Part shown: positions 9,791 through 58,114 of the stretch, piece after piece
How positions within the stretch are numbered: the first letter of the stretch is position 1
Layout: each line of letters begins with the position of its first letter
Assembly: GCA_947303945.1 (NCBI GenBank)
Contig: CAMYZS010000006.1
Location: 1-60,592, forward strand
Source of the DNA: an uncultured Candidatus Saccharibacteria bacterium
GTDB taxonomy: Bacteria; Patescibacteriota; Saccharimonadia; Saccharimonadales; Saccharimonadaceae
Direction of reading: 5' to 3'
DNA length: 60,592 nt
Notes under the pieces: model-generated
Seen by the model: only the letters and a program-made list of their open reading frames with translations
What the model was told of the DNA's origin: nothing
The model's database searches: none
Translations under genes and position numbers: made by a program

Positions 9791-9810
9791 TTTTACACGT
9801 CACTTAATGG
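9791..9810 (+). promoter_or_regulatory. Repeated phage element TTTTACAC..TTAATGG, copy 1
   Basis: This is the only copy in the left half of the genome. It precedes the nuclease-nuclease-RNA polymerase-like operon (9851-13665) and is followed immediately by a terminator-like hairpin, so it may be attenuated. Confidence 0.7.
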
Positions 9811-9841
9811 AGAGGGAATGTATGCCCTCTCTTTTTCTTTT
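9811..9841 (+). terminator. Terminator-like hairpin directly after the element (possible attenuator)
   Basis: AGAGGG pairs with CCCTCT around an 8-base loop (9811-9830), followed by CTTTTTCTTTT. A transcript started at the element would meet it within about 30 bases. It may terminate, be read through under regulation, or stabilise the 5' end. The ATG at 9818 lies inside the loop and is not taken as a start. Confidence 0.65.
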
Positions 9842-9850
9842 GAGGTGTTT

Positions 9851-10141
9851 ATGAAAGAAAATAAGTTTCAGGCTCAATTGATAAAGGACGTGAAGTCTTT
9901 ACTTCCAGGTTGTTATGTTCTCAAGAATGATCCTAACTACATTCAAGGGTTTCCAGACTTATTGATATTGTATAACAATAAGTGGGCGGCTTTAGAATGT
10001 AAACGAAGCGAGACTGCTTCTCATAGACCAAACCAAGAATATTATGTTATAAGTCTGAATGCTATGTCTTATGCTTCGTTTGTTTATCCTGAGAATAGAG
10101 AGGAGGTACTTCATGAACTTCAACGAGCATTGGAATCTTGA
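9851..10141 (+). CDS. VRR-NUC/resolvase-like PD-(D/E)xK nuclease
   Basis: The 96-aa protein has the minimal nuclease core: GFPDLLIL (D36), then ALECKRS (E49-x-K51) and a following Q62, as in VRR-NUC and Holliday-junction resolvase-like phage enzymes. It probably cleaves branched or otherwise structured DNA during replication or packaging. ATG 9851 follows GAGGTG. It is the first gene after the promoter-like element at 9791 and overlaps the next nuclease by 29 bases. Confidence 0.8.
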   Translation: MKENKFQAQLIKDVKSLLPGCYVLKNDPNYIQGFPDLLILYNNKWAALECKRSETASHRPNQEYYVISLNAMSYASFVYPENREEVLHELQRALES

Positions 10142-10667
10142 AGGCAAACACGCGTTCCTTAGCGCTTCCAAGTATCATTGGATTAATTACGATGAAGACC
10201 GATTGATATCTGCTTATCGTAATTGGAAGGCTAAGGAACGTGGTACACGTCTTCATGCTTTTGCTTGTGAGGCCATTCAGTTGGGCATAAAGTTGTCTAA
10301 TAGTAAGCGTACTTTAAATCGTTATGTGAATGACGCTATCGGTTTTGGTATGACTCCTGAATTGATACTGTACTATTCGGACAATTGTTTTGGAACAGCC
10401 GATGCAATTTCTTTTGATGGGCAACTTCTTAGGATACATGATTTGAAGACTGGAACGACGGCGGCTTCATTTCATCAGTTGGAAATCTATACTGCGTTGT
10501 TTTGTTTGGAGTATGGCTTCGATCCTCACGATATTGATATTGTTCTGAGGATCTATCAGTCTGACGAAATCCTTGAGGATAGCCCGGACCCGGATGCTAT
10601 CGTGGATATTATGAACACAATTGTCGACTTTTCTAGAATTGTCGACGGTCTTCGGAAAGAAGTATAG
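10113..10667 (+). CDS. RecB/Cas4-like PD-(D/E)xK exonuclease
   Basis: The 184-aa protein shows the RecB-family nuclease order: GTRLH (H48), GTAD (D97), HDLKTG (D110, K112) and Q122-x3-Y126. Such phage enzymes act in recombination or DNA-end processing. No iron-sulfur cysteine set is seen, so it is not a typical Cas4. ATG 10113 follows GAGGAGGT, which rules out the longer in-frame start at 10059. It stops 2 bases before the RNA polymerase-like gene. Confidence 0.8.
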   Translation: MNFNEHWNLEGKHAFLSASKYHWINYDEDRLISAYRNWKAKERGTRLHAFACEAIQLGIKLSNSKRTLNRYVNDAIGFGMTPELILYYSDNCFGTADAISFDGQLLRIHDLKTGTTAASFHQLEIYTALFCLEYGFDPHDIDIVLRIYQSDEILEDSPDPDAIVDIMNTIVDFSRIVDGLRKEV

Positions 10668-10669
10668 CA

Positions 10670-13428: not shown

Positions 13429-13665
13429 ATGAAACAGTATCTCCTCACAACCAATGACAATCCGTATCATCCGGCAGACCAATATGAAGAGTGGCGTCGA
13501 TATGACATGGAGCATGGTTATTATACAGAGCAGCGATTGGCTAGGGTTGCTTCGACTTCATATGACCTAACTGATTTGGAGAATCAGCGAAACATAAACG
13601 CTGCTGTGAATGACTTCATTCGTCTCGATAGACTTGGTCTGTACAAGCGAGTAGTCGTTGAATAA
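13429..13665 (+). CDS. Small conserved phage protein
   Basis: The 78-aa protein MKQYLLTTNDNPYHP... has an aromatic N-terminus and a helical C-terminus. It starts at ATG 13429 behind GGAGGTGAG, directly after the RNA polymerase-like gene, and is the last gene before the large non-coding region. Similar short proteins are familiar beside such genes in gut phages, but no function is known to me. Confidence 0.75.
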   Translation: MKQYLLTTNDNPYHPADQYEEWRRYDMEHGYYTEQRLARVASTSYDLTDLENQRNINAAVNDFIRLDRLGLYKRVVVE

Positions 13666-47298: not shown

Positions 47299-47303
47299 TT
47301 ATA

Positions 47304-47323
47304 TTTTACACCTCCTTTAATGG
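47304..47323 (+). promoter_or_regulatory. Repeated phage element, copy 2
   Basis: TTTTACAC-CTCC-TTTAATGG; GAAC/GTTC pairs just downstream (47324-47336). Precedes the gene at 47353. Confidence 0.7.
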
Positions 47324-47622: not shown

Positions 47623-47623
47623 A

Positions 47624-47643
47624 TTTTACACTCCTTTTAATGA
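47624..47643 (+). promoter_or_regulatory. Repeated phage element, copy 3
   Basis: TTTTACAC-TCCT-TTTAATGA, directly after a terminator T-tract; drives the gene at 47665. Confidence 0.7.
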
Positions 47644-47664
47644 AGGCTATTGAAAGGAGTCAAT

Positions 47665-47967: not shown

Positions 47968-47985
47968 CCTCATCAACAGATATTC

Positions 47986-48018
47986 TGAAATGGTTTTCAG
48001 GGTATCTGTTTTTCTTTT
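47986..48018 (+). terminator. Terminator
   Basis: ACAGATA/TATCTGT with inner CTGAAA/TTTCAG, then TTTTTCTTTT. Confidence 0.8.
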
Positions 48019-48053
48019 CAAAATCCAAAATTTCCCCAGGTGGTGATTTTGAA

Positions 48054-48233: not shown

Positions 48234-48241
48234 GAGGCCAT

Positions 48242-48469: not shown

Positions 48470-48482
48470 GAAAGGCACTACA

Positions 48483-48698
48483 ATGAATTTTTCATCCGCG
48501 CTGTTTGCTATGGAGCGAGGTCATAGGGTTAAGCGTTCGCATTGGACTGGATATTGGCGCATTAAAAACGGCGAACTTTTAATCCATTGCTGTGACGGAC
48601 GAGAGCTCAATCTTCGCGAGTCCGAAGACATGGTCTACACTCTTCGAAATATTTCCTGCGACGACTGGGAAATTGTCGAAGAAAAAGATAGGTATTAG
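48483..48698 (+). CDS. DUF2829/Tad2-like protein (candidate anti-Thoeris)
   Basis: The 71-aa protein opens MNFSSALFAMERGHRVKRSHWTG and ends DDWEIVE, the N- and C-terminal marks of DUF2829. Tad2, a member of this family, blocks Thoeris defence by binding its cyclic ADP-ribose-type signal. This copy is short, and the middle is poorly matched, so signal binding is inference. AGAAAGG precedes ATG 48483. Confidence 0.65.
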   Translation: MNFSSALFAMERGHRVKRSHWTGYWRIKNGELLIHCCDGRELNLRESEDMVYTLRNISCDDWEIVEEKDRY

Positions 48699-48702
48699 TA
48701 TG

Positions 48703-48722
48703 TTTTACACTCCTTTTAATGA
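48703..48722 (+). promoter_or_regulatory. Repeated phage element, copy 4
   Basis: TTTTACAC-TCCT-TTTAATGA, identical to copy 3; drives the gene at 48746. No clear terminator precedes it. Confidence 0.7.
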
Positions 48723-48745
48723 AGGGTTACGTTGAAAGGAGCGTT

Positions 48746-48949
48746 ATGGTATTTCATAGGGTATATCTCAACGTCGACGATAATCAATATTATGTCGAGG
48801 ATATCGGAACGACTTTTGATGACTTTTGGACTTCATTGAATACAAAGGGCATCGTTGGGAAAATTCTATATCGGATGATGTTCTATACTATCGTAGGCGT
48901 ATCGAAAATCACAGGAAATTGCAAGAAGGCTACTATTAAGTTTGATTAA
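48746..48949 (+). CDS. Hypothetical protein
   Basis: The 67-aa protein MVFHRVYLNVDDNQYYVED... has no known domain. ATG 48746 follows GAAAGGAG. An in-frame ATG at 48719 belongs to the element and would not be in a transcript starting there. A strong terminator follows. Confidence 0.7.
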   Translation: MVFHRVYLNVDDNQYYVEDIGTTFDDFWTSLNTKGIVGKILYRMMFYTIVGVSKITGNCKKATIKFD

Positions 48950-48958
48950 CCCACCGGC

Positions 48959-48987
48959 CCAGAGGACACACGTCCTTTGGGTTTTAT
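48959..48987 (+). terminator. Terminator
   Basis: CCCAGAGGAC pairs with GTCCTTTGGG around ACAC, then TTTTATAAACTTTTATATTTT. Confidence 0.8.
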
Positions 48988-49016
48988 AAACTTTTATATT
49001 TTAGGAGTTGACAAAA

Positions 49017-49421
49017 GTGATTATTCTTACCAACAACGCTAGCCAGGAACTCGCTCCCGGTCAGTCGCTTACGTTCAACACTGAGATTCTGCACACCGGC
49101 TGCGCCGAGTGTCATCGTACTGGTTCTGGTGCGGTGACACTTCGTATGCAGCAGGCGATTTATGAAATTTTCTTTAAGGCGAATATTGGCTCGACGACGG
49201 CAGCTACTCCGGCACAGTTTACCATTTTCCTCAATGGTTCGCCAATGGGCGAGACGACTATGGTGTCGACCACTGTTGCTGTCGGCGATTTAAATAATGT
49301 GGCGTGCGATACCGGAGTTCGCACGTGCTGCTGTGGTCCCGAGATAATTACTCTTGCGAATAACGGCGAAACGACAATTGTGGTGGAGAATCCGCTGTTA
49401 AAGATTAAGAGGGTTGCTTAA
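49017..49421 (+). CDS. Jelly-roll-like virion protein (BclA C-terminal-like)
   Basis: The 134-aa beta-rich protein (AIYEIFFKANIGS..., AQFTIFLNGSPMGET..., ITLANNGETTIVVENPLLKIKRV) resembles the TNF-like jelly roll at the C-termini of collagen-like spore and phage proteins. GTG 49017 is chosen because TTG 49008 touches the AGGAG site. It may decorate the virion. The family call is by pattern. Confidence 0.55.
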   Translation: MIILTNNASQELAPGQSLTFNTEILHTGCAECHRTGSGAVTLRMQQAIYEIFFKANIGSTTAATPAQFTIFLNGSPMGETTMVSTTVAVGDLNNVACDTGVRTCCCGPEIITLANNGETTIVVENPLLKIKRVA

Positions 49422-49423
49422 GT

Positions 49424-49774
49424 ATGGTTGTTAATGTTCCGCTTGGATTGATAGTTCAAAGCTTCTTAACTGGTATGGTTGGTTGGTTTGTGAAAACGCT
49501 ATTGGATTCTTTGGCTGCCTACAGAAAAGAAAGCAAAGAATGGCGAAATAGTTTGGATGAGAGGATAGACGGCATTGGAGATGCCACTCAAGCAACCATG
49601 CGAACTACCATTCTACATTATTGCGAAAAGTATATTACAAGGGGATGGGTTACTTCCGAAGAATTATCCTCTTTATTAGACATGCATTCTAAGTATAAGG
49701 TTATTAAAAAGGATAATGGATTTATAGACGGATATATTGAACGAGTTAACGCGCTCGAAACAAGGGAGCTTTGA
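49424..49774 (+). CDS. Membrane-anchored small protein, lysis-cassette type
   Basis: The 116-aa protein has an N-terminal hydrophobic segment (VPLGLIVQSFLTGMVGWFV), a charged helix, and MHSKYKVIKKDNGFIDGYIERV. The last motif recurs in small membrane proteins placed near holins in gut phages. It may assist lysis. The holin proper is more likely at 50634. Confidence 0.6.
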   Translation: MVVNVPLGLIVQSFLTGMVGWFVKTLLDSLAAYRKESKEWRNSLDERIDGIGDATQATMRTTILHYCEKYITRGWVTSEELSSLLDMHSKYKVIKKDNGFIDGYIERVNALETREL

Positions 49775-49779
49775 CACAA

Positions 49780-50364
49780 ATGCCTGATATTCAGCAACTA
49801 ATTGACGATCTAGAGACCAAAATCGATAATATAGATTCGGAATTAGAACCATTAAATTCTAACCAAAGTGAAATTCAGCAGAATATTTCTGGAATAGAAT
49901 ATGAAATGTCTATTTTATCTAATTCCATAGCCGAAGCAAATTCTTCTGTTGCAAACTATACTCTGCTTGGCGACTTAGATATAGCGGCCCAATTCCAAGA
50001 CCAAGCGGATGACTTTCAGCAGCAATACGAAGCTTTATATTCTCAGAGGCAATCTTTAATTTCTCAAAAGGAAGCTCTGGATTCTCAAATTGCTGATAAA
50101 AACGCTCTTATGTCTATGTATCAAGCGTCTCTTCAAGAACAGGAGGCCTATCTTCAGAAAACAACGGTTGATCCCGATCTAGTTATTGAAGACGAGGCTA
50201 TGGATCCAACAGACGGTATTCCTGACGATGGAGTTATAGATGATGAAGCGGAGGATCCGGAAGTTGATCCCGATGAAGAAGAGGAAGTTATTCCTTGGGA
50301 TCCAGATGATGATTCTCCAGAAGATCCGTCGCTTGATTATGAAGATGACGAAGACGTGATTTAA
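49780..50364 (+). CDS. Coiled-coil protein with acidic tail
   Basis: The 194-aa protein is a long coiled coil (about 1-130, many Q, E, S) followed by a very acidic, proline-bearing tail (about 131-194). ATG 49780 follows AGGGAG; TTG 49771 is less likely. No family recognised. It lies between two membrane proteins. Confidence 0.65.
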   Translation: MPDIQQLIDDLETKIDNIDSELEPLNSNQSEIQQNISGIEYEMSILSNSIAEANSSVANYTLLGDLDIAAQFQDQADDFQQQYEALYSQRQSLISQKEALDSQIADKNALMSMYQASLQEQEAYLQKTTVDPDLVIEDEAMDPTDGIPDDGVIDDEAEDPEVDPDEEEEVIPWDPDDDSPEDPSLDYEDDEDVI

Positions 50365-50365
50365 T

Positions 50366-50385
50366 TTTTACACACCGTTTAATGA
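50366..50385 (+). promoter_or_regulatory. Repeated phage element, copy 5
   Basis: TTTTACAC-ACCG-TTTAATGA; begins one base after the preceding stop codon and precedes the 49-aa gene at 50420. Confidence 0.7.
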
Positions 50386-50419
50386 GAAAGGAAGGTTAAC
50401 TAGCCAAAAGGAGGCTACG

Positions 50420-50569
50420 ATGCTTGAGAAGATTGAACAAGAGATTCGAGTCATCACTAACAAGATTCGTCAGGTCGAAATGTACGACCTGTGGGATGTT
50501 GTTGACGTGAATGATTTGGAGGCGCGTCTTCGTAAGCTCCGTAGCCAGTTGGAGGCAATGAAAATCTAA
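50420..50569 (+). CDS. Small coiled-coil protein (49 aa)
   Basis: ATG 50420 follows AAAGGAGG. The peptide MLEKIEQEIRVITNKIRQVEM... is helical with heptad spacing. It is a complete unit with its own element and terminator, which supports it despite its length. Confidence 0.7.
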   Translation: MLEKIEQEIRVITNKIRQVEMYDLWDVVDVNDLEARLRKLRSQLEAMKI

Positions 50570-50585
50570 CTGGCAAGGCCATTGG

Positions 50586-50617
50586 CCCGGCGCGTTTTGC
50601 CGGGTCTTTGGTTTTTG
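50586..50617 (+). terminator. Terminator
   Basis: CCCGGC/GCCGGG (50586-50604), then TCTTTGGTTTTT. Confidence 0.75.
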
Positions 50618-50633
50618 CCAAAGGAGGAACACA

Positions 50634-50972
50634 ATGTTTATATTTTCTAACGAGACTTATGACTTTTTGAAGTGGGTGGCTCAAATTGTTTTGCCTGCTC
50701 TTGGCACTTTTGTTGCTAGTATTTTTACTATATGCCATCTTCCTTATGGCGAGCAAATTGTTGGCATTATCGCTGCTATTGATGTTTTTCTTGGTGCTAT
50801 TTTAAAGATTAGTTCCGACAATTATACTGGTGATGGCGATCTTATTGTGGATACTAGTGATCCATTTAAAGACGTATACAGCATTGCTATCAGCGATTAT
50901 CCTAGTGTTCTTGCTAGTAAGGAACGCGTTACTCTTAACGTTAAGCATCCTCAACATATGAAGGAGGACTAA
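50634..50972 (+). CDS. Holin
   Basis: The 112-aa protein (SNETYDFLKWVAQIVLPALG..., then LPYGEQIVGIIAAIDVFLGAIL) matches a holin family of Bacillota phages: an N-terminal membrane span (about 14-34), a second (about 44-62), and a beta-rich C-terminus with GDLIVDTSDP. Holins open the cell membrane to time lysis. AAAGGAGG precedes ATG 50634. Confidence 0.8.
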   Translation: MFIFSNETYDFLKWVAQIVLPALGTFVASIFTICHLPYGEQIVGIIAAIDVFLGAILKISSDNYTGDGDLIVDTSDPFKDVYSIAISDYPSVLASKERVTLNVKHPQHMKED

Positions 50973-51277
50973 TGTCATATTTGGAATCCCTAGATACGGA
51001 TAATCTAGTCCTTGTCGCAAATCGAATTCAAGCGGAGTATAACAGGACTCGAAAGATGTTTTGTGATAAGGCAGGCTATTACAACCGTCAGGCTATTACG
51101 AACTTCTATTATAAAGAGGACGACCTTTCAGAGCTTATTATGAAGTGCAAAGAACTTAAAGGTCAGTACAAGGCGATTTCCGACATTATGTTTAGAAGGG
51201 GATACAGGCCGGATATTGACGGCTGGCGGGATTCCAATAACTTTTTGTTTAACGGAGATATTTTACACTCCGCTTAA
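50972..51277 (+). CDS. Hypothetical helical protein
   Basis: The 101-aa protein starts on the last base of the holin stop (AAGGAGG upstream) and has no known domain. Its last codons (DILHSA and stop) are encoded by the next repeated element, so that element evolved inside a coding end. Confidence 0.7.
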   Translation: MSYLESLDTDNLVLVANRIQAEYNRTRKMFCDKAGYYNRQAITNFYYKEDDLSELIMKCKELKGQYKAISDIMFRRGYRPDIDGWRDSNNFLFNGDILHSA

Positions 51278-51280
51278 TGG
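51261..51280 (+). promoter_or_regulatory. Repeated phage element, copy 6
   Basis: TTTTACAC-TCCG-CTTAATGG, overlapping the end of the preceding gene; drives the gene at 51309. Confidence 0.7.
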
Positions 51281-51308
51281 CAGTATAACCAAAAAGAAAG
51301 GGGTTACT

Positions 51309-51608
51309 ATGAAGCTGCCTTGGAAGAAGGAGAAGGACCCGATCGAGCTGGAGAAGGAAGAACTTGCTCGAGCTTGGGCGGTCGAGGACCTCAATTCCGA
51401 GAAGCGACAGGCATTGATTGAGCGTTATATGGCGTTGGATAGCCAGCAGCTTGAGCACGAGAAGATTCGTGCTGAGCATGGCATCGACGGCAAGACGATT
51501 CTATCAAATGGAGTGACTATCGGATTGGCGTTGCTCACGCTCAACTATGAAAAGTTCGACATTGTTCGCTCGAAAGTGGCGAACTTCTGGTTGAGGCGTC
51601 GACAGTAA
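51309..51608 (+). CDS. Small charged helical protein
   Basis: The 99-aa protein begins MKLPWKKEKDPIELEKEEL, is charged and helical to about 65, then has a weakly hydrophobic stretch (ILSNGVTIGLALLTL) that may touch a membrane. ATG 51309 follows AGAAAGGGG. Single-gene unit. Function unknown. Confidence 0.75.
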   Translation: MKLPWKKEKDPIELEKEELARAWAVEDLNSEKRQALIERYMALDSQQLEHEKIRAEHGIDGKTILSNGVTIGLALLTLNYEKFDIVRSKVANFWLRRRQ

Positions 51609-51631
51609 CATTTCAAAAGGTTAGTGCCTGA

Positions 51632-51672
51632 GAGGATGTGTGGAAGAAATTCTACACGTCCTCTTTTTTTTT
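51632..51672 (+). terminator. Terminator fused to the next element
   Basis: A 12-bp helix (51632-51643/51652-51663) with two G-U pairs, then a T-run that overlaps the first bases of element copy 7. Confidence 0.85.
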
Positions 51673-51688
51673 ACACCTCCCTTAATGG
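51669..51688 (+). promoter_or_regulatory. Repeated phage element, copy 7
   Basis: TTTTACAC-CTCC-CTTAATGG, sharing T bases with the terminator; AGGC/GCCT hairpin downstream (51689-51702). Confidence 0.75.
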
Positions 51689-51721
51689 AGGCAATACGGC
51701 CTATCGTTATAAGGAGTAAAA

Positions 51722-51958
51722 ATGGTAGTTGTTACTTGTATTGCGATGATTCTGTTCACCATTGCGGCACTCGTTACATCTATCGGCATTGGACTTGCCG
51801 GTCTCGGCGTGTTCATATGGACGTTTAGCGCGGTATATGACATGGACGAAATCGGGTTCCATCCGCCGATTGTATGGAACGACGGGTCGATTTGGGTGAA
51901 GCATTCGTCGAAGCACGTGACTCTCAAGAAGAATTCTGAAGACGAGAACGACCAATAG
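51722..51958 (+). CDS. Small membrane protein
   Basis: The 78-aa protein has a long hydrophobic N-terminal stretch (about 3-38, one or two membrane spans) and a charged cytoplasmic or external tail. AAGGAG precedes ATG 51722. Function unknown; small early membrane proteins often act on the host envelope. Confidence 0.75.
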   Translation: MVVVTCIAMILFTIAALVTSIGIGLAGLGVFIWTFSAVYDMDEIGFHPPIVWNDGSIWVKHSSKHVTLKKNSEDENDQ

Positions 51959-51964
51959 CTTTCT

Positions 51965-51995
51965 AGGGGATTGGGCGCACGCCCTTTCCCTTTTA
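51965..51995 (+). terminator. Terminator
   Basis: AGGG..CCCT encloses GGGCG/CGCCC (51965-51990), then TTTTATTTTT. A close relative lies at 55309. Confidence 0.8.
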
Positions 51996-51996
51996 T

Positions 51997-52016
51997 TTTT
52001 ACACACCCCTTAATGG
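51997..52016 (+). promoter_or_regulatory. Repeated phage element, copy 8
   Basis: TTTTACAC-ACCC-CTTAATGG; its last GG is the first GG of the tRNA-like fold. No ORF lies before the next element. Confidence 0.75.
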
Positions 52017-52079
52017 AAAGATTGGTGTAATTGGTAACACACGCATTGGCGAGTTGCAGGTTCGAATCCTGTTCTTTCT
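52015..52079 (+). ncRNA. tRNA-like RNA with shortened anticodon arm
   Basis: Acceptor GGAAAGA (52015-52021) pairs with TCTTTCT (52073-52079) over 7 bp. D-arm GTGT/ACAC (52025-52040) has GG in its loop. T-arm GCAGG-TTCGAAT-CCTGT (52056-52072) joins the acceptor in exact tRNA geometry. Where 17 bases of anticodon arm should be, only CGC-ATTG-GCG (52042-52051) fits, and no CCA is encoded. It cannot be a normal decoding tRNA as it stands. Confidence 0.65.
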
Positions 52080-52084
52080 TTTAT

Positions 52085-52104
52085 TTTTACACATTATTTA
52101 ATGA
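52085..52104 (+). promoter_or_regulatory. Repeated phage element, copy 9
   Basis: TTTTACAC-ATTA-TTTAATGA; GAAGAC/GTCTTC hairpin (52103-52120) follows; drives the gene at 52142. Confidence 0.75.
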
Positions 52105-52141
52105 AGACAATAGGGTCTTCGTAAAAACGAAAGGAACTACA

Positions 52142-52438
52142 ATGAAGAAGTTTATGGTTTGCGTTGCTATCGTGGCCGCTTTCGTCGCGGGTTTTGCCGC
52201 CAAGGGCTTCAGCCCTGAGTGGGACTACCAGCGCGGAATCGGTGCAACGGAAGTTCGCGCCGACTACGACCTCTCCATCGGTGGGGACTCGTGCTATTAC
52301 GAAATCATATTGTGGGACGAGGGGTATATGAATTACGAGATCGTCGAGCGTGGTATCTGCCACAGGTCCGAGCTTGAAGAGCTCAGCGAGACTGCTGGGC
52401 TTTACGAGACGGTCTTTGAGGCTGGTTACCGTCGCTAG
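52142..52438 (+). CDS. Small exported or membrane-anchored protein
   Basis: The 98-aa protein has an N-terminal signal-like segment (MKKFMVCVAIVAAFVAGFAAKG) followed by an acidic domain with SCYYEIILWDEGYMNYEIVERG. No lipobox is present. Either signal cleavage near AAKG or anchoring is possible. GAAAGGA precedes ATG 52142. Confidence 0.75.
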   Translation: MKKFMVCVAIVAAFVAGFAAKGFSPEWDYQRGIGATEVRADYDLSIGGDSCYYEIILWDEGYMNYEIVERGICHRSELEELSETAGLYETVFEAGYRR

Positions 52439-52444
52439 ACGGTT

Positions 52445-52472
52445 GAGGAGTCATGTACTCCTCTTTTCTTTT
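52445..52472 (+). terminator. Terminator
   Basis: GAGGAGT/ACTCCTC around CATGT, then TTTTCTTTTC. Confidence 0.8.
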
Positions 52473-52483
52473 CATACTTGATA

Positions 52484-52503
52484 TTTTACACTTCTCTTAA
52501 TGG
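52484..52503 (+). promoter_or_regulatory. Repeated phage element, copy 10
   Basis: TTTTACAC-TTCT-CTTAATGG; CGTA/TACG (52505-52516) follows; drives the gene at 52531. Confidence 0.75.
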
Positions 52504-52530
52504 ACGTATAAGTACGGCAAAGGAGGCTTT

Positions 52531-52734
52531 ATGGAGTGGTTCAGTAAGGCGATGTCATACACTATCGCAATAGGCTTTGCTCTAATGGGAGTCTACGTTG
52601 GACTCCTGGTGCTTCGACTAGCAATCGGAGTAGCGGGATTCATGCTAGGCTCTGCTTTGGGCACTGTTATATTGGCAATGGTTATGTGGCATTGGTACAA
52701 GAAACACAAGGAGAAAGGTGATTTTCCGTTTTAA
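52531..52734 (+). CDS. Two-span small membrane protein
   Basis: The 67-aa protein is hydrophobic over residues 9-52 (two likely spans) with a basic C-terminus (HWYKKHKEKGDFPF). AAAGGAGG precedes ATG 52531. Function unknown. Confidence 0.75.
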   Translation: MEWFSKAMSYTIAIGFALMGVYVGLLVLRLAIGVAGFMLGSALGTVILAMVMWHWYKKHKEKGDFPF

Positions 52735-52745
52735 CGTTCGAGACT

Positions 52746-52775
52746 GGGGCTGCACACGCGGCCCCTTTCTTTTTC
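52746..52775 (+). terminator. Terminator
   Basis: GGGGCTGC/GCGGCCCC around ACAC, then TTTCTTTTT. Confidence 0.8.
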
Positions 52776-52787
52776 GAAAGGATATTC

Positions 52788-53081
52788 ATGAATATTTCGC
52801 AAATTATTTTCATTATCACTTCGTTTTACTGTGGTAGGCTTTCTTATATGCTAGTTAAGAATAAGTATCTGGAGTCAAAGCGTGATGAACTGAATTCTTA
52901 TCGAAACGAACTTCTTAAGATCGAGTCGGATCTGGAAGCGAAGGATTCCCAAATTCGTAAGAAGTGGCAGTCCATGGTCGATGATATTTCTAAGTATCAA
53001 GCATCTATCAATGGCGATACAGGAAAGTGGAGCGATTGGGACGATGTTTATCTGAGGAGCTGGAATTCTGCTGAGAAGTGA
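52788..53081 (+). CDS. Membrane-anchored coiled-coil protein
   Basis: The 97-aa protein has an N-terminal span (ISQIIFIITSFYCGRLSYML) followed by a charged coiled coil (about 28-75). GAAAGGA precedes ATG 52788. It is the second gene after a terminator and has no own element, so it may depend on read-through. Function unknown. Confidence 0.7.
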   Translation: MNISQIIFIITSFYCGRLSYMLVKNKYLESKRDELNSYRNELLKIESDLEAKDSQIRKKWQSMVDDISKYQASINGDTGKWSDWDDVYLRSWNSAEK

Positions 53082-53082
53082 G

Positions 53083-53102
53083 ATTTACACCCCTTTTAAT
53101 GG
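53083..53102 (+). promoter_or_regulatory. Repeated phage element, copy 11
   Basis: ATTTACAC-CCCT-TTTAATGG (first base A instead of T); AGCG/CGCT around ATAA (53103-53114) follows; drives the 32-aa gene at 53137. Confidence 0.7.
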
Positions 53103-53136
53103 AGCGATAACGCTTCAAGATATCGAAGGGGGTTTT

Positions 53137-53235
53137 ATGAAAGAAAATAGATGGTTTAAGCTGATTGGAATTTTGGCAATTATAGCAATACCGTTATACT
53201 TCTTGAGGGATACGATTCATGATATTTTGAGTTAG
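53137..53235 (+). CDS. 32-aa single-span membrane peptide
   Basis: ATG 53137 follows GAAGGGGG. The peptide MKENRWFKLIGILAIIAIPLYF... is one membrane span with a short polar end. Element, hairpin, ribosome site and terminator frame it exactly, so it is likely real. Confidence 0.65.
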   Translation: MKENRWFKLIGILAIIAIPLYFLRDTIHDILS

Positions 53236-53247
53236 AGTTCCAAGATT

Positions 53248-53281
53248 GAGGCTACGTGAAAACGCGGCCTCTTTCTTTTTA
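53248..53281 (+). terminator. Terminator
   Basis: GAGGCTACG pairs imperfectly with CGCGGCCTC (53248-53271), then TTTCTTTTT. Confidence 0.75.
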
Positions 53282-53295
53282 GAAAGGATGATATT

Positions 53296-53661
53296 TTGGA
53301 CCATCTTATTTCAGACCGAGAATTGGAGATTATTCTCAAAAGAAGATCGGGAATGACATTCAATAAAATTGGAGAGGAGATGGGATTGTGTTACCAACGT
53401 GCTCAACAACTATATTTGTCTGGGTTGGAAAGTTTACGAATAGAGAAGGATATTCGTGAACGAAATAAGTTTTTCTTTAAAACAGCCAATGAATTCAGCT
53501 GGACACCAAAGCAACTTAAAAAACTATATAGACTTTTAAAAGATAGAGATATTCTATACACATGGCATACTCTTAACGACGAAGAGCTTCTAAGTATATA
53601 TGGTTTTGGTGCCACATATCTGGATTTTCTTTCTTATACTAAAGAAAAGTATCTCTTGTAA
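53296..53661 (+). CDS. Sigma region 4-like HTH protein with alpha-CTD-like end
   Basis: The 121-aa protein has an HTH of sigma region 4 type at about 17-48 (SGMTFNKIGEEMGLCYQRAQQL). Its C-terminus (about 93-113, LNDEELLSIYGFGATYLDFL) resembles the helix-hairpin-helix of the RNA polymerase alpha C-terminal domain. Both point to transcription control: a DNA-binding activator or sigma-like adaptor. TTG 53296 is used as start behind GAAAGGA. It follows a terminator without a repeated element. Confidence 0.7.
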   Translation: MDHLISDRELEIILKRRSGMTFNKIGEEMGLCYQRAQQLYLSGLESLRIEKDIRERNKFFFKTANEFSWTPKQLKKLYRLLKDRDILYTWHTLNDEELLSIYGFGATYLDFLSYTKEKYLL

Positions 53662-53682
53662 AACCGCAGGTAAATGAAGCGC

Positions 53683-53708
53683 TGAGAGCGCGTTTAAGGC
53701 GCTGTTTT
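53683..53708 (+). terminator. Possible terminator
   Basis: AGCGC/GCGCT around GTTTAAG, then GTTTTAA; weaker than the others. A second small hairpin GGTA/TACC lies at 53717-53730. Confidence 0.45.
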
Positions 53709-53750
53709 AACTAAAAGGTACAATTATACCTATATAGAAAGGATTTGTTG

Positions 53751-53951
53751 ATGACTTTCGAGGATTTTGTGGATCATTGCTCTTTCGACCACATCAACGA
53801 AGGCGATAAAACTAAGATTCTCGTTATATTTTCAGAAGGAATGACTCGAGAGTTCGGAACCGAGTTTGTCAAAGCACAAACGGAGCTTGCCGAAGATCTC
53901 GTGGCCAGTGATTTGTATGATTATATTAAGGAGCAGATGAAAAATGAATGA
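53751..53951 (+). CDS. Hypothetical acidic protein
   Basis: The 66-aa protein MTFEDFVDHCSFDHINEGDK... starts at ATG 53751 behind AGAAAGGA. No domain known. First of four overlapping small genes (53751-54557). Confidence 0.7.
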   Translation: MTFEDFVDHCSFDHINEGDKTKILVIFSEGMTREFGTEFVKAQTELAEDLVASDLYDYIKEQMKNE

Positions 53952-54132
53952 TGTGATTAGGTATTGTAACGGAGATATTAATTGGAACGAGAACGGATGG
54001 CCCGAACCGAATGCTGGTTCTGAGACAGACGATGGACAGTTTAACACGGACGATATGCCAGATGATATTTTCGAAATTTGGCAATCCGAATGCGACGACA
54101 TGTACGACGAGAATTGGAGTGTGGATGGATAA
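53944..54132 (+). CDS. Very acidic small protein
   Basis: The 62-aa protein carries many Asp and Glu residues (SETDDGQFNTDDMPDDIFEIW) and overlaps both neighbours by 8 bases. Strong negative charge is typical of DNA-mimic anti-defence proteins, but no specific relation is visible. Confidence 0.65.
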   Translation: MNDVIRYCNGDINWNENGWPEPNAGSETDDGQFNTDDMPDDIFEIWQSECDDMYDENWSVDG

Positions 54133-54337
54133 GCAATGCTTTCGATGTGGAAATCCAATAGAAGGTTTCCAAGAAGGTGGACAAATCACTATTTCTGGAT
54201 TTTATGACAGCAACCGTTTTCCATATTATAAGAATTTCACACTTTGTCCAACATGTCACGACAAACTAATTTTCACAATAAATCAGTGCTTGTATGGTTA
54301 TGAGGAGGATGCAAATGGCTCGCGCGATGACGCTTGA
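54125..54337 (+). CDS. Zinc-ribbon protein
   Basis: The 70-aa protein has two cysteine pairs, CFRCG and CPTCH, about 35 residues apart, typical of a zinc ribbon. ATG 54125 overlaps the preceding stop. The longer upstream frame is a shadow. Function unknown. Confidence 0.7.
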   Translation: MDKQCFRCGNPIEGFQEGGQITISGFYDSNRFPYYKNFTLCPTCHDKLIFTINQCLYGYEEDANGSRDDA

Positions 54338-54557
54338 TGAATTTTTTGATATGGCTCAACTTGGAGGACAGATTAAGGCATGCCATGATATTTTCGAAAT
54401 TCTTCAGAACGACAGTATGACTCCGGAACAGCAATCTCTAGCTCTAGGAAAGTATCAAGCAGAAGTTTTTGAGAACTTCAAGAAGTCGCAACTCAAGTTT
54501 AAAATGAGCGAAGGCCGAGTTCGAATGGACGAGGATAGCATTGATAGCCTTGGTTGA
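54315..54557 (+). CDS. Small helical protein
   Basis: The 80-aa protein (MARAMTLDEFFDMAQLGGQIKACH...) is mostly helical. ATG 54315 follows GAGGAGG, inside the preceding gene. It ends 2 bases before element copy 12. No domain known. Confidence 0.7.
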   Translation: MARAMTLDEFFDMAQLGGQIKACHDIFEILQNDSMTPEQQSLALGKYQAEVFENFKKSQLKFKMSEGRVRMDEDSIDSLG

Positions 54558-54559
54558 TA

Positions 54560-54579
54560 TTTTACACTCCTCTTAATGG
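54560..54579 (+). promoter_or_regulatory. Repeated phage element, copy 12
   Basis: TTTTACAC-TCCT-CTTAATGG, just after a stop codon; drives the gene at 54608. Confidence 0.75.
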
Positions 54580-54607
54580 AGGTGTTGGTACGTTAGAAAG
54601 GAATGAA

Positions 54608-54829
54608 ATGAAGGGTTTCAGCGGTCACACGTCGTATTATGTCAATGTGGGACAAACAATCGGAATCGTTGGCGGTCTGATTCTGGGCTTTAAAGCTCTT
54701 CGTGTAGAAGAAGCCAAGGCCGGAATTCAGCGCCGACCTCTGAAAGATGTCGTAGTTGATGATATTCGAAGGGTTAGAGCTTGGTACTCTGATAATTTCG
54801 GAGCAACAAAGATGTATCGGCATCACTAA
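54608..54829 (+). CDS. Small protein with one membrane segment
   Basis: The 73-aa protein has a hydrophobic glycine-rich stretch (QTIGIVGGLILGFKAL) and a basic C-terminal half. ATG 54608 follows GAAAGGA; the ATG five bases earlier runs into an immediate stop. Function unknown. Confidence 0.7.
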   Translation: MKGFSGHTSYYVNVGQTIGIVGGLILGFKALRVEEAKAGIQRRPLKDVVVDDIRRVRAWYSDNFGATKMYRHH

Positions 54830-54836
54830 TGAAACT

Positions 54837-54868
54837 GGGCTGGGAGAAATCCTGGCCCTTTTATTTTT
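54837..54868 (+). terminator. Terminator
   Basis: GGGCTGGGA/TCCTGGCCC with two G-U pairs around GAAA, then TTTTATTTTT. Confidence 0.8.
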
Positions 54869-54881
54869 AAGGAGATCACAT

Positions 54882-55079
54882 ATGTCCACAATTCAAATTC
54901 GAGTTTGTGATTTCTGCAAAGAAGCTCTTAAGACAGACTATTACTACCAAGTTATCATAGACGAACGCACTCCGAGCACTGTATATACGCCATGGCTTCA
55001 CGATGCCACATCGTTCGATGTCTGTAAGAAATGCTATCTAAAGATCATGGACGTCAAGAAAAATGCGTTAATTAGTTAG
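54882..55079 (+). CDS. Zinc-ribbon protein
   Basis: The 65-aa protein has CDFC near its start and CKKC near its end, a two-knuckle zinc ribbon. AAGGAG precedes ATG 54882. It follows a terminator and has no own element. Confidence 0.7.
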   Translation: MSTIQIRVCDFCKEALKTDYYYQVIIDERTPSTVYTPWLHDATSFDVCKKCYLKIMDVKKNALIS

Positions 55080-55083
55080 GATA

Positions 55084-55103
55084 TTTTACACACCGCTTAA
55101 TGG
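55084..55103 (+). promoter_or_regulatory. Repeated phage element, copy 13
   Basis: TTTTACAC-ACCG-CTTAATGG; AACGGA/TCCGTT hairpin (55104-55123) follows; drives the gene at 55142. Confidence 0.75.
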
Positions 55104-55141
55104 AACGGATACAAGATTCCGTTGAGAAGAAAGGAAATAAG

Positions 55142-55306
55142 ATGGACTTCGAGATTTCTGAGGACGTCAAGTTCTGGTTGCTTATGCTTGGTTACACTGG
55201 AGGCACGCTTGTGTTGTGCTACTGGATGTACAAGTGGTTTGCCGGAATGATTGGCTCCGCGGTTGTCAAGGAGCTCGTCAAGGCCGGAGTCATCGCGGTC
55301 TTGTAG
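55142..55306 (+). CDS. 54-aa membrane protein
   Basis: The protein MDFEISEDVKFWLLMLGYTGG... has one clear span (about 11-31) and a second hydrophobic end. GAAAGGA precedes ATG 55142. Single-gene unit with its own element and terminator. Function unknown. Confidence 0.7.
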   Translation: MDFEISEDVKFWLLMLGYTGGTLVLCYWMYKWFAGMIGSAVVKELVKAGVIAVL

Positions 55307-55308
55307 GT

Positions 55309-55344
55309 TCCAATAGGGATCGGGCACACGCCCTTTCCCTTTTT
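55309..55344 (+). terminator. Terminator
   Basis: AGGG..CCCT encloses GGGC/GCCC, then TTTTTATTT; nearly the same sequence as the terminator at 51965. Confidence 0.8.
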
Positions 55345-55373
55345 ATTTCGGCTAGAGGAGAGAAAGGACCGAC

Positions 55374-56003
55374 ATGCCGACAGGATACCCAATCACAGAC
55401 GACGATAAGCTTCGAGTTATTGAGATGTTTGACAACGGTCTTTCTAGACGAGAAGTTATCAAGAAAAGCGACCTTAGTCCCGCTAGCGTTGACCGAATCA
55501 AAAAGGAATTCTACGGAAAGGATATTCGGAGCATGGATGTGACTATTGCTGGCGATAAGAAGCACGGAACTCTCAGATCTGTTGGACCATCTCATTATAT
55601 CGGTACTTGTTTTCTGGAGAACGGTAAGTCCATATCGAAGCGCTTTAACGTGTCTACCGGTTCAAAGGACGCTATCAAACTGTGGAGCGAGTGGCAGCAG
55701 TCTTGCTGGAAGAAGGCTGAGCAGCGAGAGGAATCGCAAAGAAAGGATATTCCTGTGAATCAAGTTAAGGTCACGACGTCCGCACCTGTTTCGAACGCTT
55801 CGATAATATCGAACACGATGACGGAGAAGCCCAAGACTGTTCTAAACTCGCTTTATATTCTCGTTGTTGGAGACCCTAAGGTGGCCGGATGGTTTGTTGA
55901 CATGGAGCAAGCCATCAAGGCTGAGGATATAGCAAACAAAGCTCTTGAATGCGCAGGGGTTGACGCTCGCTATCAGGTTCTAGAAGTTAAGCGGTGGAAG
56001 TGA
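55374..56003 (+). CDS. HTH and AP2-like DNA-binding protein
   Basis: The 209-aa protein has an N-terminal HTH (about 8-45, LRVIEMFDNGLSRREVIKKSDLSPASVDRI), then a small beta-rich block HGTLRSVGPSHYIGTCF to KDAIKLWSEWQQ (about 63-110) like AP2/phage DNA-binding domains, and a C-terminal alpha-beta domain with LYILVVGDPKVAGWF. It may regulate phage or host genes. GAAAGGA precedes ATG 55374. Confidence 0.65.
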   Translation: MPTGYPITDDDKLRVIEMFDNGLSRREVIKKSDLSPASVDRIKKEFYGKDIRSMDVTIAGDKKHGTLRSVGPSHYIGTCFLENGKSISKRFNVSTGSKDAIKLWSEWQQSCWKKAEQREESQRKDIPVNQVKVTTSAPVSNASIISNTMTEKPKTVLNSLYILVVGDPKVAGWFVDMEQAIKAEDIANKALECAGVDARYQVLEVKRWK

Positions 56004-56005
56004 TA

Positions 56006-56025
56006 TTTTATACGACGTTTAATGG
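56006..56025 (+). promoter_or_regulatory. Repeated phage element, copy 14 (variant)
   Basis: TTTTATAC-GACG-TTTAATGG, the only copy with T in place of C at column 6; GCAG/CTGC (56025-56040) follows. A terminator closes the unit before any gene. Confidence 0.65.
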
Positions 56026-56115
56026 CAGTAATGGAGCTGCTGACCATCAGGCGTTAGATTAGCACCATAGAGCAATTTGAGGGGCTGCGTGAAAACACGT
56101 GGCTCCTCTTTTTCT
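56024..56115 (+). ncRNA. Possible short RNA between element copy 14 and a terminator
   Basis: A transcript from the element would be about 90 bases and hold only an 8-codon ORF (56031). It begins with a GCAG/CTGC hairpin and ends in the terminator at 56079. It may be a small RNA or a leader that controls the next gene by read-through. Confidence 0.4.
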
Positions 56116-56116
56116 T
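56079..56116 (+). terminator. Terminator
   Basis: GAGGGGCTGCGTG/CACGTGGCTCCTC around AAAA (56079-56108), with wobbles and minor bulging, then TTTTTCTTT. Confidence 0.8.
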
Positions 56117-56139
56117 TCAGGAGAGAAAGGATATTTGTC

Positions 56140-56388
56140 ATGACAGAACACAGAGCATTTAAGGCATTAACCGGACGCGACATTGTTAAGGCACTTACGG
56201 AATCTGGTTGCCTTGATAAAGAACTTGAGAGCTTTGAATACAATTTTTCATATGATTTGAAAGCGATTGTCGTGTATGAAAAATCGCACGAACGTCTAGA
56301 AAATGACGAAGTAAAATATACAGACATTCACCTAATCATTTCCGAAGGCGGGAAATGGAAGCTCGAGACCAAGGTTTGGGTTGGCTGA
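56140..56388 (+). CDS. Hypothetical protein
   Basis: The 82-aa protein MTEHRAFKALTGRDIVKAL... has alternating helix and strand, no known domain. ATG 56140 follows GAGAAAGGA. It lies after a terminator without its own element and ends just before copy 15. Confidence 0.7.
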   Translation: MTEHRAFKALTGRDIVKALTESGCLDKELESFEYNFSYDLKAIVVYEKSHERLENDEVKYTDIHLIISEGGKWKLETKVWVG

Positions 56389-56390
56389 TA

Positions 56391-56410
56391 TTTTACACGC
56401 TGTTTAATGG
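56391..56410 (+). promoter_or_regulatory. Repeated phage element, copy 15
   Basis: TTTTACAC-GCTG-TTTAATGG; GAGG/CCTC (56411-56424) follows; drives the gene at 56445. Confidence 0.75.
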
Positions 56411-56444
56411 GAGGAATAGGCCTCTTAGAGAGAAAGGAACTATC

Positions 56445-56651
56445 ATGATTAACAAGATCATTAAGTATGCGGCTATTGGTTGCGCAGCTTACGGAGTTGT
56501 TAAGGCAGCCGAGTTCGTAGGCATATGCAAAGGCATGATCTACGGATGCAGGCTTGCCGAGAACGCACCCGAAGACGCACATAACGTTGCCCGTGAATGG
56601 GATGAGTTTGATAAGCAATGGAAGGAGTTCAAGAAGTCTGTTAAGGCCTAA
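56445..56651 (+). CDS. Small protein with hydrophobic N-terminus
   Basis: The 68-aa protein MINKIIKYAAIGCAAYGVV... has a short hydrophobic N-terminal helix and a charged C-terminus ending WKEFKKSVKA. GAGAAAGGA precedes ATG 56445. Function unknown. Confidence 0.7.
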   Translation: MINKIIKYAAIGCAAYGVVKAAEFVGICKGMIYGCRLAENAPEDAHNVAREWDEFDKQWKEFKKSVKA

Positions 56652-56661
56652 CCGAACAGCT

Positions 56662-56704
56662 GAGGAGCCTGTGCATAACGCATGGGTTCCTCTTTTTATA
56701 TTTT
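56662..56704 (+). terminator. Terminator
   Basis: GAGGAGCCTGTGC pairs with GCATGGGTTCCTC (56662-56692) using wobbles, then TTTTTATATTTTT. Confidence 0.8.
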
Positions 56705-56724
56705 TTAATCAAGAAAGGAAAATT

Positions 56725-56937
56725 GTGTCGGCAGAAAATCATGATGTTTGGGTTTCATTGGGATTAGAAGACTACGAAGAATCTTACGACAAAATAGTTG
56801 CAGCTCGTAACGAAACAAATAACCGATACGATTTGGATAAATTCTCGATTCTTTTAACAGAAAACGCCGTGCTTAGAGGAGAACGGGATTTTTGGAAGGC
56901 AGCGGCATTGGAACTTTTGAAACATATAATGTCCTAA
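56725..56937 (+). CDS. Small helical protein
   Basis: The 70-aa protein starts at GTG 56725 behind AGAAAGGA (VSAENHDVWVSLGLED...) and is helical with a likely coiled coil at the end. The longer frame is a shadow. Function unknown. Confidence 0.6.
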   Translation: MSAENHDVWVSLGLEDYEESYDKIVAARNETNNRYDLDKFSILLTENAVLRGERDFWKAAALELLKHIMS

Positions 56938-56971
56938 ACGTACTAGCTAACGAATAGAGAAAGGACGAATC

Positions 56972-57769
56972 ATGAAGAAGATTCCATTTGGTAAGATTTA
57001 CAAACACGGTAAGTCATTTCTAGTTAAGCATTCTGCAGATATTCTTACCGCGTTCACGGCAGCTGGCGTGGTTCTCACAGGCATTGAGACGCATAAAGCC
57101 ACTAAGAAGGCTGATGAGTATCTTCGAATCAATGGTTATGACCAGGCAAATCCTGATACACAAAAGGTTCTGAAGTGGGAATCTCGTAAAAATTATATTC
57201 TCCCGGCTGTTATTGGCGCCAGCACCATTGGCGCTGCCGTTGGTGCAAATTATATTAATCACAAGCAGATTGCAGGACTTGCTGCCGCATGCACAGTCGC
57301 AGAGACGGCTCTGAGCGAGCATCGTGATAAGATTGAAGAGCTTATGGGTACGAAGGCTCTTCAAAAGATTGACGACGAAATTAACCTCGATCATGCGGTT
57401 GATATTCTGGATAACGACGAGCCAGTTCTTGACACAGGCAAGGGAAACGTTATGTGTTGCGAAGGATATTTGACTGGTCGAAAGTTCATGGCGAGTCCTG
57501 ACTGGGTTCGGAAATGCGTAAATGAGTTTAACGAACGGGTTAATTATGATACGTATTGTGCATATTCCGAATTTCTAGAACTTCTATGGCGCGACCATCT
57601 TGCAAGCACGCCAATTCCACGTTCTGCAGACGCAATTGGGTACAATATTCACCAAAACGGTCTACTTCGCGTTGAGATTACGAGCGATATCGATTCTAAG
57701 ACGGGTCTGCCATACTTGATATTCTGCCCGAGTAATCCGCCAATCGCCAATTTTATGGAGATTCTGTAA
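56972..57769 (+). CDS. DUF6353 family membrane protein
   Basis: The 265-aa protein has a hydrophobic pair typical of DUF6353: residues about 25-42 (DILTAFTAAGVVLTGIET) and about 73-95 (ILPAVIGASTIGAAVGANYI). The C-terminal domain contains CVNEFNERVNYDTYCAYSEFLELL and LLRVEITSDIDSKTGLPYLIF. It looks like a shorter paralogue of 862-1857. GAGAAAGGA precedes ATG 56972. Function unknown. Confidence 0.75.
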   Translation: MKKIPFGKIYKHGKSFLVKHSADILTAFTAAGVVLTGIETHKATKKADEYLRINGYDQANPDTQKVLKWESRKNYILPAVIGASTIGAAVGANYINHKQIAGLAAACTVAETALSEHRDKIEELMGTKALQKIDDEINLDHAVDILDNDEPVLDTGKGNVMCCEGYLTGRKFMASPDWVRKCVNEFNERVNYDTYCAYSEFLELLWRDHLASTPIPRSADAIGYNIHQNGLLRVEITSDIDSKTGLPYLIFCPSNPPIANFMEIL

Positions 57770-58089
57770 TGAGCTATGATATTCGGCGTAATAATGAGGG
57801 TGCCACTATCGTAATGCCAATCGAGCTTCCTCTATATGAAGGAAACCCGTCCACTCTTGGAGAACAGGCCATTCGAGACCTCACGTCGTTTCTTCGTCAT
57901 CACGCTGCGTGTGAGGTTATAGAAAACAACTTTGACACGCAAGACGATGCGATATTTGACTTGTATCAAGCAGAGAGGGCTCAGATGACCGCAAAGCTTA
58001 TCGCGGTATTTATGGCTTTGGCTGGCTGTTCTGAAGAGCTTGATATCGACTTGATGCAAGAAATTTGGGAAATGCCGTGGGAAGTCTAG
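57769..58089 (+). CDS. Hypothetical acidic protein
   Basis: The 106-aa protein overlaps the DUF6353 stop by one base (TAATG). Its C-terminal half is helical with a moderately hydrophobic stretch (AKLIAVFMALAGC). No family recognised. It probably works with the preceding protein, given the coupling. Confidence 0.7.
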   Translation: MSYDIRRNNEGATIVMPIELPLYEGNPSTLGEQAIRDLTSFLRHHAACEVIENNFDTQDDAIFDLYQAERAQMTAKLIAVFMALAGCSEELDIDLMQEIWEMPWEV

Positions 58090-58094
58090 GTAAG

Positions 58095-58114
58095 TTTTAC
58101 ACATCTTTTAATGG
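58095..58114 (+). promoter_or_regulatory. Repeated phage element, copy 16
   Basis: TTTTACAC-ATCT-TTTAATGG; AGACC/GGTCT around ATAA (58115-58128) follows; drives the gene at 58155. Confidence 0.75.

Follow-up and report, generated by a model that had tools for sequence, protein, structure and literature searches.

The repeated element

The window analysed here, a stretch of 60,592 nucleotides, makes up the entire contig C6 of an assembly of 1.29 Mb. A 20-base element recurs along it that the initial annotation regarded as a candidate phage-specific promoter. The question raised by the locus is what reads this element. The best explanation, to which we give a probability of about 0.86, is that it serves as promoter for a two-barrel RNA polymerase that the phage itself encodes, a member of PHROG 4291; binding, RNA starts and the activity of the enzyme are inferred from sequence comparison and a predicted model.

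A motif search of the window returns all 16 coordinates of the initial annotation (Table 1). The pattern TTTTACAC-N4-Y-TTAATGR occurs as 14 exact copies and two with a single mismatch, its spacing is invariant and every copy lies on the + strand, as had been claimed. No exact element is expected by chance (0 in 100 dinucleotide shuffles), and the next-best matches in the window carry three mismatches, a level at which 2.5 are expected by chance. The exact motif is absent from the rest of the assembly, and megablast with positions 46000–58500 of the window found no close phage. The aligned copies consist of TTTTACAC, a pyrimidine at column 13, TTAATG and a purine at column 20, with C at column 11 in 14 of 16. 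The AT-rich stretch immediately 5' of the element is also conserved, and conservation is weak past column 20.

Most copies start 2–65 bases after a stop codon, many of them just 2–6, and usually 23–65 bases separate column 19 from the next plausible start codon downstream. The copy at 51261 overlaps a stop codon. The structural region (14–47 kb) contains no copy, in line with the claim that the element never precedes structural genes.

Table 1. Copies of the element and associated features of the window
Feature	Position	Strand	Remarks
Motif copy 1	9791..9810	+	TTTTACACGTCACTTAATGG; ahead of VRR-Nuc/Cas4-like/RNA polymerase operon; CCGCA kept at -25 to -21 (9784–9788); strong hairpin and T-run 3'
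Small endonuclease, phrog_93	9818..10141	+	In the VRR-Nuc position of relatives; first operon gene; true start perhaps further in
Cas4-like exonuclease, phrog_3953	10059..10667	+	Second gene of the polymerase operon
Predicted single-chain two-barrel RNA polymerase, 913 aa	10670..13411	+	PHROG 4291; DFDGD; predicted fold
78-aa protein, phrog_4303	13429..13665	+	DNPYxP motif; adjoins the polymerase gene in 16/16 genomes
Motif copy 2	47304..47323	+	Motif search
Motif copy 3	47624..47643	+	Motif search
Motif copy 4	48703..48722	+	Motif search
Motif copy 5	50366..50385	+	Motif search
Motif copy 6	51261..51280	+	Overlaps stop codon of ORF 50972–51277
Motif copy 7	51669..51688	+	Motif search
Motif copy 8	51997..52016	+	Continues directly into tRNA-family gene
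tRNA-family RNA, 64 nt	52016..52079	+	Shortened anticodon arm; Rfam RF00005, 36.7 bits; 5' end is column 20 of copy 8
Motif copy 9	52085..52104	+	Motif search
Motif copy 10	52484..52503	+	Motif search
Motif copy 11	53083..53102	+	ATTTACAC...; one mismatch, column 1
Motif copy 12	54560..54579	+	Motif search
Motif copy 13	55084..55103	+	Motif search
Motif copy 14	56006..56025	+	TTTTATAC...; one mismatch, column 6
Motif copy 15	56391..56410	+	Motif search
Motif copy 16	58095..58114	+	Motif search

The phage-encoded polymerase

The suspicion that a dedicated polymerase or factor is involved gains support, on comparative evidence only, from the PHROG 4291 polymerase that the phage encodes. Residues 4–912 of the protein align to positions 7–905 of the 909 in the phrog_4291 profile (1017 bits), a full-length match to a family that PHROG annotates as 'RNA-dependent RNA polymerase'. 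The metal-binding DxDGD motif of two-barrel polymerases is present as DFDGD (in GADFDGD) at residues 523–527, and is invariant in 20 aligned homologues. Pfam recognizes only a helix–turn–helix (HTH) in the chain (HTH_23 and sigma-70 region 4). This sigma-4-like HTH (aa 104–141) is followed by a predicted winged helix (about aa 155–220), the double-psi core (aa 255–747) and HTH-like helices at the C-terminus. Sigma-like NCBIfam models match the HTH with low scores. Predicted in isolation, the N-terminal region folds with good confidence and gives only middling matches to winged-helix proteins (Z up to 7.3).

The AlphaFold model of the whole chain, built from 20 sequences, has a pLDDT of 77.5. 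Its best structural matches are P74 gp62 (Z 14.9) and gp64 from a phage related to P74 (Z 14.7), followed by plant RDR2 and fungal QDE-1 (Z about 13–14.5). These alignments (Z 13–15 over 340–450 residues) cover residues 255–747 and beyond, and stand well above the remaining matches. Foldseek alone gives maize RDR2 as the single significant match, and a sequence search against PDB chains finds none at E up to 10. Since the model aligns best to gp62, gp64, RDR2 and QDE-1, all of them single-chain two-barrel RNA polymerases, it is very probable that the phage has an RNA polymerase of its own that belongs to the same superfamily as the cellular enzyme and not to the T7 type, as far as a predicted structure can tell. 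Membership of the two-barrel superfamily is met by the sequence motif and the predicted fold, in the absence of a solved structure, and DNA-dependent RNA synthesis is inferred. A T7-type polymerase was rejected, there being no Pfam RNA_pol match at E 0.001. The YonO family (phrog_8308) was also rejected: YonO matches phrog_8308 and not phrog_4291, and the profile of the PHROG 4291 family misses YonO. The PHROG 4291 polymerases are found in 250 sequenced phage records, where they are annotated as 'HTH protein', 'hypothetical' or 'RNA-dependent RNA polymerase'.

The motif in related phages

The motif search over related phages that the initial annotation had proposed shows that all 20 examined sequences of at least 26 kb from phages with a PHROG 4291 polymerase carry a motif in the same register, at 7–18 copies each, with 229 copies in total on the polymerase strand and none on the opposite strand. 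Position weight matrices (PWMs) account for 216 and 0 of these in 19 phages, and C10, a second phage contig of the same assembly as the window, adds 13 and 0. Each matrix was seeded from the pattern of its own phage or of the family, and some of the 20 phages are close kin. Their hosts include Gordonia, Streptomyces, Arthrobacter, Rhodococcus, Lactococcus and Faecalibacterium.

Close relatives, taken from IMG/VR and confirmed by tblastn (63–81% polymerase identity), have the identical pattern on the polymerase strand only, with the N positions varying; three long contigs contain 7, 15 and 18 copies. For distant relatives (38–48% identity) spaced 5-mer pairs were counted de novo and refined with PWMs. 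The counting at first returned coding repeats (G010) or low-complexity pairs (G023), and the motif emerged with the family register as seed. The long distant relatives share register and architecture and use other letters. ReqiPoco6 (G005) has TCGCA-N6-ACAC-N4-TATAATGAGACC, and the Gordonia phage Vardy has eight copies of TCGCA/G-N6-ACAY-N4-TATAATGA. The upstream box is TCGCG in G012 and G013 and TTCGCAA in G014, G019, G021 and G023, and G025 shows ACAAC...TAATGA. Among cultured phages, 11 copies are found in DrGrey (Streptomyces), 9 in Tatanka (Arthrobacter), 15 in Oengus (Faecalibacterium) and 10 in CHPC971 (Lactococcus). The short contigs G006, G015 and G024, which are fragments, gave no clear motif.

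Numbered from column 19 as +1, the general motif comprises an upstream box at -25 (TCGCA/G in most phages), ACAY at -14 and a TATAAT-like box at -6. The last is TATAAT in most relatives, TTAAT in the window clade, TTTAT in Oengus and TATAGT in CHPC971. The upstream box was missed by the initial annotation; most relatives keep it, whereas the copy ahead of the polymerase operon is the only one in the window where it is still clear. C10 has a polymerase and a motif of its own, the latter with TTACG as its box, so that within one bin the box differs as the polymerases differ; membership of the bin does not prove a common host. Overall, the motif classes follow the polymerase clades and not the hosts (Actinobacteria, Firmicutes).

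The association was also approached from the motif, without using the polymerase for selection, by scanning TTCGCR-N6-ACAY-N4-TATAATGR through 2.9 million viral contigs. With the correct spacers at least 120 stretches match. Lengthening the second spacer by one base leaves 1 stretch, and lengthening the first by two bases leaves 4. Among the matches listed, 31 of the 37 contigs of at least 30 kb with a single general-motif match encode PHROG 4291. In a control with the shorter window motif, whose matches are expected to be mostly chance, 3 of 26 such contigs do so (Fisher p = 1e-8). Motif and polymerase are thus linked in both search directions, which supports the claim of a phage-specific promoter, again on comparative evidence alone.

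The polymerase operon and possible recognition of the upstream box by the polymerase

In 14 of 16 genomes a simple score scan places a motif copy ahead of the VRR-Nuc/Cas4-like pair, 870–950 bp 5' of the polymerase gene; the corresponding distance in C10 is 914 bp. The scan missed a copy at 6902 in G025 that is detected with that phage's own matrix, and found none recognizable near the polymerase gene of CHPC971. Nearly all the genomes thus have a copy in front of the polymerase operon, which suggests that the operon is self-activated via its own upstream copy. Three of the four phages of the window clade keep CCGCA or TCGCA at -25 to -21 in the operon copy, the fourth (G004) having no retained box, and most other copies have lost it. 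Its retention in the operon copies ties the 20-base motif of the window to the longer family motif. Downstream of several operon copies there is a hairpin with a T-run, which may act as an attenuator or stabilizing leader.

The recognition segment of the polymerase HTH varies with the upstream box. The segment ES(S/T)VR pairs with the TCGCR box, C10 combines VSTVV with TTACG, and in the window clade a degenerate box is accompanied by xSGVR. CHPC971, however, keeps ESSVR and yet has a CACA-type box. This correlation, which spans only three or four classes and is not backed by binding data, points to the HTH as the putative reader of the upstream box.

The probable start site

The final GR of the element had been proposed as a possible transcription start. 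Comparative support for this comes from tRNA-family genes. The RNA at 52016 (Table 1), for which ARAGORN makes no call, begins at column 20 of its copy, as do two tRNA-family genes in G002. The 5' ends fall at column 21 in Oengus and column 22 in G004, and in G007 the gene lies some 6 bases further on. Similarly, a stem begins at column 18 or 19 in 17 of 51 window-clade copies, compared with about 2 after shuffling, and the mean folding z is -1.66 at column 19 as against -0.05 to -0.56 further downstream. The excess of 5' hairpins at the start site in the window clade is real; as no more than roughly one copy in three has such a hairpin, they are excluded from the definition of the element. 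Since the tRNA-family 5' ends and the stem and folding excess sit there, G19 is the probable +1, with column 20 as a possible alternative; this assignment is indirect, with no RNA 5'-end data behind it.

Alternative readers of the element

Co-inheritance alone fails to single out the polymerase. The non-structural window genes present in all 15 other genomes are those for the prim-pol, a helicase, two nucleases, the polymerase and the 78-aa protein, and an association by descent with another reader is not excluded when such core genes are common to these phages. The element could then be the site of a different phage factor, the 78-aa protein or an unrecognized one, that recruits the host or the phage polymerase. 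The invariable position of phrog_4303 beside the polymerase gene fits such a role, and the protein is a possible accessory factor or partner of the polymerase. It matches no DNA-binding family in Pfam, PHROG-function or NCBIfam, however, and no sigma factor common to the 16 genomes was found. The polymerase is the sole gene with recognizable transcription domains among those the 16 genomes share, and has HTH domains of its own with a recognition helix that varies with the box. We consider this explanation improbable.

Ordinary sigma-70/sigma-A promoters, with TATAAT as the -10 hexamer and a non-canonical upstream part, have been proposed for Vardy (PMC9671010), and the conservation of TATAAT in most relatives speaks for them. 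Some copies could be used by host sigma, given that TATAAT is identical to the -10 consensus of bacteria. As an account of the motif as a whole this is nevertheless very improbable. The motif lacks -35 and -10 hexamers 16–18 bp apart: the upstream box lies a fixed 14 bases before TATAAT, without tolerance, and there is no -35 at 17 bp. The variant third boxes of the window clade, Oengus and CHPC971 depart from the consensus, and the motif spans hosts of different phyla, mainly where the polymerase gene occurs. A host-type start some 7 bases past the A/T box would truncate the five tRNA-family genes that begin at columns 20–22. The least credible reading, to which we attach almost no weight, is an RNA-processing or terminator element within longer transcripts. 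Copies do lie directly after stop codons, and short hairpins then follow many of them. Against this, strong conservation stops at column 20, the stems further downstream vary in sequence and are missing from many copies, and the information resides mostly in the A/T-rich, non-palindromic part 5' of the hairpin, in promoter-like boxes at fixed spacing. A sigma-54 promoter was rejected separately: the spacing of TTTACAC-N5-TTAAT is similar to that of -24/-12 elements, but it lacks the GG and GC that define them, and relatives have TATAAT.

A model for initiation

Under the preferred reading, promotion by the phage's PHROG 4291 polymerase, the full promoter would consist of the box at -25 to -21, TCGCA/G in most relatives and degenerate in the window clade; ACAY at -14 to -11, usually inside an A/T run (TTTTACAC in the window); and a TATAAT-like melting box (TTAAT in the window) at -6 to -1. 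The first RNA base would be G(+1) in column 19 or else the purine that follows it. The polymerase is inferred to bind the element directly, its N-terminal sigma-4-like HTH reading the upstream box and the A/T box being melted. Transcripts from column 19 or 20 would serve the small-gene region at 47–58 kb and the polymerase operon, the latter giving positive feedback. The structural genes lack a copy and so would need read-through from 9791 or the host polymerase. In its strongest form the model has one polypeptide with a built-in sigma-like reader: the HTH recognizes -25 to -21, the A/T box is melted and transcription starts at a 25-base promoter without sigma, the box and the recognition helix co-evolving across a widespread family. 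We see about an even chance that this holds.

Comparison with known systems

T7-type polymerases are one-protein enzymes with 23-bp same-strand promoters, an A/T melting region, a purine start and 5' hairpins on some transcripts. The window system would be alike in its working; the fold is unrelated, the window enzyme being a predicted two-barrel protein with DFDGD.

The closest functional precedent is the pair gp96/gp64 of the Thermus phage P23-45. Cappable-seq and ChIP-seq assigned two motifs to its non-virion (gp64) and virion (gp96) RNA polymerases; repeated motifs before early genes were taken as proposed phage promoters, and relatives without the gp96 enzyme also lack its motif (PMC10770324). 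The window enzyme resembles both as a single-chain two-barrel phage polymerase, its predicted fold being nearest to gp62/gp64. It differs in belonging to a separate sequence family (phrog_4291) and in its N- and C-terminal HTH regions. Its motif has an A/T-rich, TATAAT-like box and a further box 25 bases from the start, whereas gp64 sites are described as GC-rich (PMC10770324). The tape-measure ORF of the window has no DxDGD motif, so there is no sign of a virion polymerase like that of P23-45.

YonO of the Bacillus phage SPbeta (PMC5467207) likewise belongs to the two-barrel superfamily and is a single-chain phage polymerase with DxDGD, but is a phrog_8308 protein without significant sequence match to the window enzyme and without a Pfam HTH. 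The sequence of its promoter is stated to be open (PMC5467207). YonO transcribes late genes, whereas the window sites avoid structural genes, a point against the preferred reading. SPbeta has TTTTACACAGTTCTTAAATGA upstream of yonK. Neither phi3T nor BUCT083 conserves this occurrence, which is treated as chance, and a link to YonO on this basis was rejected.

For Vardy (cluster DJ), a 50-bp MEME motif with five occurrences was reported in 2022; it contains TATAAT and was read as a sigma-70 -10 (PMC9671010). From its description and location, this is the same element. The polymerase of Vardy, gene 89, was annotated as a hypothetical protein, and no link between polymerase and motif was drawn (PMC9671010). 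We found no connection of the motif with PHROG 4291 in the searchable literature, most subscription journals lying outside that scope.

The promoters of single-chain two-barrel phage polymerases are little known, motifs having so far been proposed for the P23-45 enzymes. A large polymerase family, with members in cultured phages that grow on laboratory strains of Gordonia, Streptomyces, Arthrobacter, Rhodococcus, Lactococcus and Faecalibacterium, gains a predicted promoter and a predicted start base, both of them testable. The system suggests that a relative of the cellular RNA polymerase may initiate without sigma, and orthogonal polymerase/promoter pairs for expression work could follow.

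Genes and leaders associated with the probable promoter element

The gene for phrog_4303 lies directly downstream of the polymerase gene in all genomes compared. The leader of the polymerase operon carries a strong hairpin followed by a T-run, and equivalent leaders of altered sequence are found in the related phage contigs G001, G002 and G004, in Faecalibacterium phage Oengus and in C10. It is possible that this structure serves attenuation or self-regulation of the polymerase.

Short genes of the tRNA family accompany promoter copies in the window and in G002. Both are 64–65 nt long with a shortened anticodon arm, and their 5′ ends fall one base past column 19 of the element, the proposed start. 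ARAGORN did not call the window gene. The two may encode RNAs that resemble tRNAs but take no part in decoding.

Coordinates of features in the window and in G002
Feature	Contig	Position	Strand	Remarks
Hairpin and T-run	window	9809-9832		3′ of promoter copy ahead of polymerase operon; GGAGAGGG...CCCTCTC-TTTTT
phrog_4303, 78 aa	window	13429-13665		DNPYNPF-type motif; immediately 3′ of polymerase gene
phrog_2152 copy 1	window	862-1857		near one contig end
phrog_2152 copy 2	window	56972-57769		also DUF6353; near other contig end
Short tRNA-family gene	window	52016-52079	+	Rfam, above gathering threshold
Short tRNA-family gene	G002	35967-36031		Rfam, above gathering threshold

Contig ends and origin of the phages

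The two phrog_2152 copies are paralogous, and the family is widespread among these phages. The first gene of the window (region 1-200) is thymidylate synthase-like and the final bases (60393-60592) were judged by eye to be ThyX-like, which suggests a circular or permuted genome cut at this gene; no direct overlap of 10–200 bases was found between the ends. C10 (52,420 bases), from the same assembly, is a second phage with this polymerase family. As none of 60 related genomes from the host's genus and order contains such a phage, the contigs may owe their place in the assembly to co-binning and not to residence in the host.

In public phage records the labels given to the PHROG 4291 polymerase vary (e.g. 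NC_042016 gp81, ON970622 gp89), between RNA-dependent RNA polymerase, HTH DNA-binding protein and hypothetical protein, and this annotation is open to correction.
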